A stretch of 64,000 bases of DNA from Thermococcus sp. 2319x1. Its GTDB lineage: Archaea > Methanobacteriota_B > Thermococci > Thermococcales > Thermococcaceae. The stretch covers positions 1,110,321-1,174,320 of the forward strand of contig NZ_CP012200.1 in NCBI RefSeq assembly GCF_001484685.1. The letters are read 5' to 3'. Of this stretch, positions 2,321-5,300 are shown in pieces (the first letter of the stretch is position 1; the number at the start of each line of letters is the position of its first letter). The translations under genes and the position numbers were made by a program. The notes under the pieces were generated by a model. It was not told the DNA's origin. It worked only from the letters and a program-made list of their open reading frames with translations, and searched no databases.

Positions 2321-5300
2321 ATGCCAGTTGAAAAAGTGATGAAAAGGGATGGTCGAATAGTTCCTTTCGATGAGAGCCGTATAAGGTGGGCTATACAAAG
2401 GGCAATGTGGGAAGTTGGGGTAAGGGATGAGAATCTTCTCGATAAGATTGTGAAGGATGTTGTTGATAGGATCAATGAGCTTTATGAGGGGCAGATTCCC
2501 CATATAGAGAACATTCAGGATATAGTGGAACTTGAACTGATGAGAAACGGCCTTTTTGAGGTTGCCAAAGCCTACATAATCTACAGAAAGAAGAAAGCAG
2601 AGATTAGAGAAGAGAAAAGGAAGATACTGAACAAAGAGAAGCTTGATGAGATAGACAAGCGTTTTTCAATAAACGCTCTGAGGGTTCTGGCAAGCAGGTA
2701 TCTCATGAAGAACGAGGAAGGAAAAATAATCGAGAGCCCAAAACAGCTCTTTGAGAGGGTTGCCACCTTAGCAGCAATTCCCGAGCTCTTATACGACGAG
2801 AGGGTGTTCTCCAAAGAAGGAGGCTACACACAGGATTTGAAGAGGGTCGAGCATTATCTGCAGAACTTTGGGAGCTTTGATAACGTTTACAGCATAGGCC
2901 GCTTCAAGCTCAACAAGTACCATTTTGAGAGGATGATAAACCTCTATAAGGAGCTGGCAGAGAAGGGAAAAATGAAGGTAAGCATTGACGAATTTTTGAA
3001 CATGCTCGAGAGAGGAGATTTTGACAGATACGAAGAGGTCATCGAGGACTTCTTCAATTTGATGGTCAATCAAGTTTTCATGCCCAATACCCCCGCTTTA
3101 ATAAACTCTGGAAGACCACTGGGAATGCTCTCGGCTTGCTTTGTTGTGCCGATAGAGGATGACATGGAGAGCATAATGAAAGCAGCTCATGATGTGGCTA
3201 TTATACAGAAAATGGGTGGGGGAACAGGGTTAAACTTCTCAAAACTCCGCCCCGAGGGCGATTTAGTCGGAACGACGACCGGGGCAGCCTCAGGTCCAGT
3301 CTCGTTCATGCACCTCATCGATGCCGTTAGCGATGTAATAAAGCAGGGTGGAGTGAGAAGAGGAGCCAACATGGGCATACTTGAGGTCTGGCATCCGGAT
3401 ATTGAGAAGTTCATCCATGCAAAAGAGCAGAACGTTGGAACCAATGTTTTGAGCAACTTCAACATAAGCGTTGGTCTCTGGGGAGATTTCTGGGAAGCCC
3501 TCAAAGAAGGGAAGAAGTACCCCTTAGTTAATCCAAGAACGGGGAAAAAGGTAAAGGAGATTGATCCCAAGAGCCTCTTTGAGGAATTAGCTTACATGGC
3601 CTGGGCAAAGGCAGATCCGGGTGTGGTGTTCTTTGACATAATAAACAGAAGAAACGTTCTGGAGCCCGCTAAGGGTGAAAAGATAAGGGCCACCAACCCA
3701 TGTGTTGTTGGAGATACAAGGGTTTTAACACCCGAGGGCTACCTCAAGATTGAGGAGCTCTTTAGGATTGCAAAAGAAAGGAACGAAGAGAAAGTTGTTG
3801 CAGTTGAAGGAATAGCTGAGGAAGGAGAAGAGTTCGCTTATCCAATAACGATCCTACTTCCAAATGAAGAAGAGAAAGAGGTCATTTATGAAACTGTACA
3901 CGGAAAGCAGCCTGCTATAGCAGATCCTGTTGAAGTCAAAGCCTACGTCTGGAAAGTTGGAAGGAAGAGGGTGGCTAGAGTAAAGACAAAAGAGGGTTAC
4001 GAGATAACCGCTACCCTTGACCATAAGATAATGACAAAGGATGGCTGGAAAGCAGTTGAAGATCTTAAAGAAGGCGATTTAATAGCCTTGCCAAGGTTTG
4101 AGGTCGGGGATGACTTTGGAAGCGAGAGCATAGGCGAGGATTTAGCCTTTACTTTAGGATGGCTTATTGGGGATGGATGTATTAACACAAATGATAAGAG
4201 GGTTTGGTTCTACTTCAACGCTGAAAAAGAAGAGGAGATAGCGCAGAAAATCTCTGAAATACTCAAGAAGCACTTTAACTCCAAAGCCGAACCCCACAGA
4301 TATGGAAGTGAAATCAAGCTTGGAGTTCGCGGCGAGGCCTACAGATTCTTTGAGAAAATAGTCAAAACGAACGAAAAAAGAGTTCCAGAAATCGTTTACC
4401 GCTTAAGGCCAAATGAGATCAGAGCATTTTTAAGAGGCCTCTTCACAGCTGGCGGCTACGTGGACAATGATAGTGCAATAAGACTAACCTCAGGGGATAG
4501 GAAGCTTTTAAGAGACGTCCAAGACTTACTGCTTCTCTTTGGTATAATATCAAAAATCCACGAAAGGCCATACAAGGATACATTTGAATACACAACCAAA
4601 GACGGTGAAAAGAAAATCTACGAAGCACAAGGTTATTATGAACTCGTTATAGCAAACTACAGCAGAAAGCTGTTCGCAGAGAAGATCGGCTTCGAAGGGG
4701 AAAAACAAGAAAAAATTAGGCTCAATAAAACAGAAATTGACGAACCCCACGCAAGAGTTGAGAGTGTGGAAATCATCGGAGAAGAAATTGTTTACGACTT
4801 AACAGTACCGGAGATTCACAGCTATGTCTCCAACGGCTTTATGAGCCACAACTGTGGAGAAGAGCCCCTCTACGACTACGAATCGTGTAATCTGGCCTCT
4901 ATAAACCTTGCAAAGTTCGTAAAATATAACGACGAAGGAAAGCCGTACTTCGACTGGGACGAATATGCTCAGGTTATAATGAAAGTCGCCAGGTACCTTG
5001 ATAACGCGATAGATGTAAACAGATTCCCCCTACCGGAGATAGACCACAACACCAAGCTGACAAGAAGAATCGGTGTGGGAATGATGGGTTTAGCGGATGC
5101 GCTCTTCAAACTTGGAATAGCTTACAACAGCAAAGAGGGCTACGACTTTATGAGGAAGGTCACCGAGTACCTCACCTTCTACGCATACAAGTACAGCATA
5201 GAGGCGGCAAAGAAGAGGGGAACCTTCCCGCTTTATGAAAAGACCAGATATCCAGAGGGGGAGCTGCCGATAGAGGGCTACTACCACAGGGAGATATGGA

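Follow-up and report, generated by a model that had tools for sequence, protein, structure and literature searches.

The nrdJ gene of Thermococcus sp. 2319x1 contains an intein whose LAGLIDADG endonuclease carries glycine in place of one of its two catalytic acids. The element is very probably a once-mobile intein that still splices and has lost homing along with this acid. The window (the whole stretch of DNA analysed, 64,000 nucleotides long) includes the following features, in which intein residues are numbered from the intein Cys1:

2321..6163, + strand: nrdJ, class II (vitamin B12-dependent) ribonucleotide reductase, 1280 amino acids including the intein (NF006207 and TIGR02504 above cut-off; Pfam PF02867)
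3676..3700, + strand: extein stretch adjoining the intein, a possible co-conversion footprint (silent codons)
3701..4852, + strand: intein of 384 amino acids (nrdJ residues 461-844), Cys1 to Asn384, site ATNP/C...HN/CGEEPL, the one intein in nrdJ
3701..4108 (border approximate), + strand: N-terminal part of the Hint splicing domain, with TxxH (T105, H108)
4109..4720 (borders approximate), + strand: LAGLIDADG homing-endonuclease domain (PF14528)
4151..4177, + strand: first LAGLIDADG motif, TLGWLIGDG, Asp158 kept (codon 4172-4174)
4430..4456, + strand: second LAGLIDADG motif, LRGLFTAGG, with Gly251 (GGC, 4451-4453) in place of the catalytic Asp
4721..4852, + strand: C-terminal part of the splicing domain, ending ...SHN, followed by Cys (4853-4855)

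The gene, the intein and the endonuclease domain all score above curated cut-offs and the motif is therefore no chance match. The intein matches TIGR01445 and PF14890 in frame within a conserved host protein, and PF14528 is matched by two stretches of it in the profile search. With its two motifs and LAGLIDADG fold, it is by descent a two-motif LAGLIDADG homing endonuclease, and it belongs to the nrdJ (RIR1) inteins.

The first-pass annotation had pointed to a glycine at the catalytic-acid position of the second motif, and alignment with homologous inteins bears this out. Codon 251 (GGC) is in frame in the nrdJ open reading frame, and Gly251 occupies motif position 8, which we take to be the catalytic-acid position. 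In solved homologues the same column holds Glu in PI-PfuI (1dq3, LFDAEGH) and Asp in PI-PkoII (2cw7, YFIGDGD). The codon is indeed one base away from GAC, the form found in all four nearest orthologues (L005-L008, 90-94% identical). The first motif, which had been called intact, retains Asp158 (GAT), and position 8 thus carries an acid in the first motif alone. Two residues past Asp158, position 160 is Cys in the window and Tyr in all 33 other sequences that reach it.

Searching 94 genomes of the family recovered 35 full-size orthologues, that of the window among them, and all 35 were aligned (the G064 sequence runs into a contig end, which leaves only its second half, residue 251 included; that of G085 lacks the last residues). 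These Thermococcaceae inteins share the gene and the site (ATNP/CGEEPL) and have 71-94% identity to that of the window. Asp occupies position 251 in 33 of the 35 (GAC in 20, GAT in 13), whereas the window and genome G073, whose intein is 72% identical to that of the window, both have Gly encoded by GGC. The two are not sisters on the maximum-likelihood tree, which requires two changes to Gly, and a common ancestry of the two Gly alleles was rejected by the AU test (p-AU 5.5e-41 for this pair, picked post hoc). The alignment also contains Asn for Asp158 in G070. Two further members fall short of their kin, by about 20 residues in G008 and by about 4 in G003; their endonuclease region is shortened while both acids are kept.

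The G073 intein (L043/L047) breaks 12 positions that are invariant elsewhere, the next highest sequence breaking 4. These breaks include Trp154Arg in the first motif. At conserved positions, A-to-G or T-to-C changes make up 15 of the 22 private replacements of this intein, or of the single-base differences behind them. Judged from its sequence, the endonuclease of G073 is strongly decayed. Genome G070, besides its main intein with Asp158Asn, has a second short nrdJ piece (C5:84705-84953, in L065) that adjoins a stretch, a 114-residue open frame, resembling an intein C-terminal end.

Structural comparison places the window intein among known two-motif enzymes. An AlphaFold2 model built from nine sequences (the window and eight other loci) has a mean pLDDT of 61.8 with residues 251-261 below 50, and so supports the fold and not the geometry at Gly251. 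The top Foldseek ranks are TliVMA, PhoVMA, PI-PfuI and PI-PkoII, which recur together with I-DmoI among the top twenty of VIA-align. PI-PfuI and PI-PkoII (PI-TkoII) also combine a splicing domain with a two-motif LAGLIDADG endonuclease (endonuclease-part E-values of 1.9e-07 and 3.2e-04), but they have acids where the window has Gly. I-DmoI shares the two-motif fold (VIA-align Z of 15.7 and rmsd of 2.7 over 161 residues, for this low-confidence model), but it is intron-encoded and has no splicing domain; a structure of its E117A mutant exists (5a0w). WhiA has the LAGLIDADG fold as well (Z of 15.6; PF14527 at 23.1 bits, just below the cut-off of 23.2) but is a bacterial transcription factor and not an intein. 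PhoVMA (7qst) is likewise a full-length archaeal intein without the active-site Asp, with a similar fold as far as a model of pLDDT 61.8 indicates. However, a deletion shortens its second motif helix by one turn, whereas in the window a one-base substitution leaves the motif length unchanged. PhoVMA neither cuts nor detectably binds its site, and cutting was restored by grafting the motif regions of an active relative (PMC8966425).

Loss of double-strand cleavage, and hence of homing, is the best inference for the window intein. A single A-to-G change from GAC to GGC would have produced Asp251Gly. With one acid gone, the metal-dependent cut of both strands would fail, and the intein could then no longer spread to nrdJ alleles that lack it. 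Its persistence would follow from the rarity of precise deletion and from the need for splicing to obtain the enzyme, while the occupied site would stay closed to intact copies.

The residues required for splicing are in place, making it likely that splicing is retained. The window intein is of the Cys1, His-Asn/Cys type: it begins with Cys1, contains TxxH and ends in His-Asn, with Cys at +1. None of the 34 sequences covering Thr105 and His108 departs from these residues, the same holds for the 34 that cover His383 and Asn384, and Asp366 and His373 occur in 35 of 35. The window intein therefore probably still splices.

Three relatives and four outgroups served to polarise the changes on the window branch, with extein parts of 110 and 436 codons. 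The intein accumulated 14 amino-acid and 12 silent changes, against 9 and 28 in the exteins (Fisher p=0.03). The ratios are 8 to 9 for the endonuclease domain alone (p=0.12 against the exteins) and 6 to 3 for the splicing domain (p=0.04). Since the excess of amino-acid changes also appears in the splicing domain, the relaxation is not specific to the endonuclease, and it is modest. Moreover, 8 of 17 endonuclease changes alter an amino acid, slightly fewer than the fraction of about 0.70 expected under neutrality (p 0.035-0.049), which suggests that the acid was lost recently or that some constraint is left on the domain. Among 26 pairs for which endonuclease dN/dS was computed, the values are 0.17 for the window with G075 and with G078, and three pairs that include G073 give 0.16-0.19. 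Twenty of the other 21 lie at 0.02-0.15, including the window with G089 (0.03, silent sites near saturation), and the window with G087 is saturated and undefined. The window privately breaks two invariant positions (Y160C and Y287H), compared with 0-3 in unaltered sequences and 12 in G073. Set against the other 30, the altered inteins (window, G073, G070, G008 and G003) sit on longer terminal branches (p=0.004) and break invariant positions more often (p=0.0005), both values being partly circular as these five were chosen partly by such breaks, D158N itself being counted.

Taken with the acid found in 33 of 35 orthologues and the neighbouring residues considered below, the raised amino-acid to silent ratio favours the proposal that the endonuclease is probably dead. 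The first-pass annotation had also considered the intein to be fixed and no longer mobile. The latter follows from the presumed loss of cleavage and fits the divergence pattern of the allele. The former finds no support in the occupancy of the site. A joined extein query matched 83 of the 94 genomes (one genome per species) and gave none in 11. The match is in one piece, and the site empty, in 37 genomes; 35 have this intein and 11 have a mini-intein of 153 residues without endonuclease. The 46 occupied sites appear as 43 split matches and three matches of one half only (G082, G085 and G064). All 11 mini-inteins were read, as were 6 of the 37 empty sites at the DNA level. In the window's genus (13 genomes) five genomes have the full intein, two the mini-intein and five an empty site, one being without match, and such vacancies among close relatives do not support fixation. 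Seven of the 11 mini-inteins (L055-L064, L066) terminate in Ser-Lys-Asn and four in Ser-Arg-Asn, the usual penultimate His being absent.

Near-identical inteins in diverged hosts are the pattern expected from recent transfer of the intein alone. This pattern is observed for G077 and G078, with inteins 0.5% apart and C-exteins 8.6% apart, the lowest ratio among all pairs of the 33 sequences with enough extein. In a four-way comparison, G077 has private changes at 1 of 1077 intein sites and at 182 of 4218 sites elsewhere; for G078 none are reported in the intein and 31 of 4067 elsewhere, and for G075 the figures are 8 of 1084 and 83 of 4119. The window has 47 of 1123 and 252 of 4288, part of which may lie on the branch common to the other three. 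Intact-looking alleles thus seem to have been mobile recently and the window allele to have been resident, although the near-identity of intact inteins is evidence of recent common descent and no proof of cleavage. The flank adjoining the window intein reads AAG ATA AGG GCC ACC, as in genomes of another genus (G070, G048 and G060). In its own genus the flank reads AAA ATC CGT GCA followed by ACC or ACT in three intact-looking carriers, five empty genomes and the mini-intein carrier G082, and AAG ATA AGA GCA ACC in the mini-intein carrier G074 (G085 being outside this comparison). A short co-conversion on arrival of the intein could explain these codons, the tract being too short to serve as proof.

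The window enzyme might instead have become a strand-specific nickase, a case that the first-pass annotation had left aside: of two active sites one has lost its acid, the other would still cut one strand, and nicking would induce weak conversion. Asp158 and the conserved Lys226 and Pro229 (presumably block D residues) are kept, amino-acid changes in the endonuclease are somewhat fewer than under neutrality, and a LAGLIDADG nickase has reportedly been engineered from I-AniI. However, metal ions at the active centre are shared between the two LAGLIDADG acids, and loss of one acid may therefore impair cleavage of both strands. Tyr160 has been replaced as well, two residues from the acid that is left, and the four-way comparison gives no sign of a recent spread of the window allele. 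Literature searches for LAGLIDADG mutants that lack one acid and nick DNA returned no report of any. We regard a nickase as unlikely.

Equally doubtful is a repeatable route of loss, in which Asp251Gly would go with Leu71Pro and Lys345Glu in two unrelated carriers and adjust the interface between splicing domain and endonuclease, the full-length domain being kept for folding, DNA binding or nicking. When residues found in only two sequences, one in each main clade, are considered, the window and G073 share three (71P, 251G and 345E), whereas every other cross-clade pair, out of 216, has at most one in common. G073 is also the sequence with the most rare residues (34, the next having 17), and each of the three changes involves an A-to-G or T-to-C change. 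Of the private intein differences of the window, 28 of 47 are of these two types, against 95 of 252 in the flanking DNA (p=0.006, post hoc), as measured against the three relatives pooled, on whose shared branch some of the differences may sit. No mechanism was found for this bias. A cautious reading is that the three shared residues reflect chance under relaxed constraint and a biased mutation spectrum.

A sequencing or assembly error, with GAC as the true codon and an intact endonuclease, would concern a single base in a single assembly, but it is improbable given that the same branch has other changes at conserved positions (Y160C, Y287H, K345E and K236R) and that an independent lineage carries the same GGC. 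Least probable of all is a tolerated Gly in an enzyme that still cuts with an acid supplied by another residue: Asp255 and Asp257 lie close downstream, but both also occur in the 33 sequences with Asp251 (35 of 35 overall) and are thus rejected as replacements, position 249 is Thr in the window and Ser or Thr in relatives, and a search of the alignment for an acid gained near Gly251 revealed none.

Two other observations concern the same genome. Directly downstream of nrdJ (6302-11069, + strand), five genes match a type IV-C CRISPR-Cas system, a rare CRISPR-Cas subtype: Cas6, a type IV Cas10-like large subunit, Cas11, Csf2 (Cas7) and Csf3 (Cas5). An intein in MCM/cdc21 (L002, G000:C1:1366420-1367028) has Asn at the acid position of its second motif (GVFDCNG), where the inteins of L003 and L004 keep Asp. 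This second endonuclease may also be impaired.

A decayed endonuclease in a splicing intein remains our preferred reading of the nrdJ allele. The homing cycle of inteins is already published (PMC4071816; PMC8966425), and the loss of the acid would be a clear but ordinary step of it, as for the PhoVMA intein. An open-licence literature search with general terms returned no paper recognised as dealing with this allele. The retained splicing residues and missing catalytic acid, with empty, intact-looking and mini forms in relatives, correspond to a degenerate-endonuclease stage. At this one site the stages of the cycle can be seen side by side in one archaeal family, the principle itself being established: empty in 37 genomes, full-size without these breaks in 30 of 35 inteins, one acid lost in the window, G073 and G070, an endonuclease region shortened with both acids in G008 and G003, and a mini-intein in 11. 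Empty, intact-looking, damaged and mini forms all occur within the single genus of the window, and the order of decay, as well as nicking by a one-acid enzyme, can therefore be tested on natural alleles that are 6-7% apart in protein.
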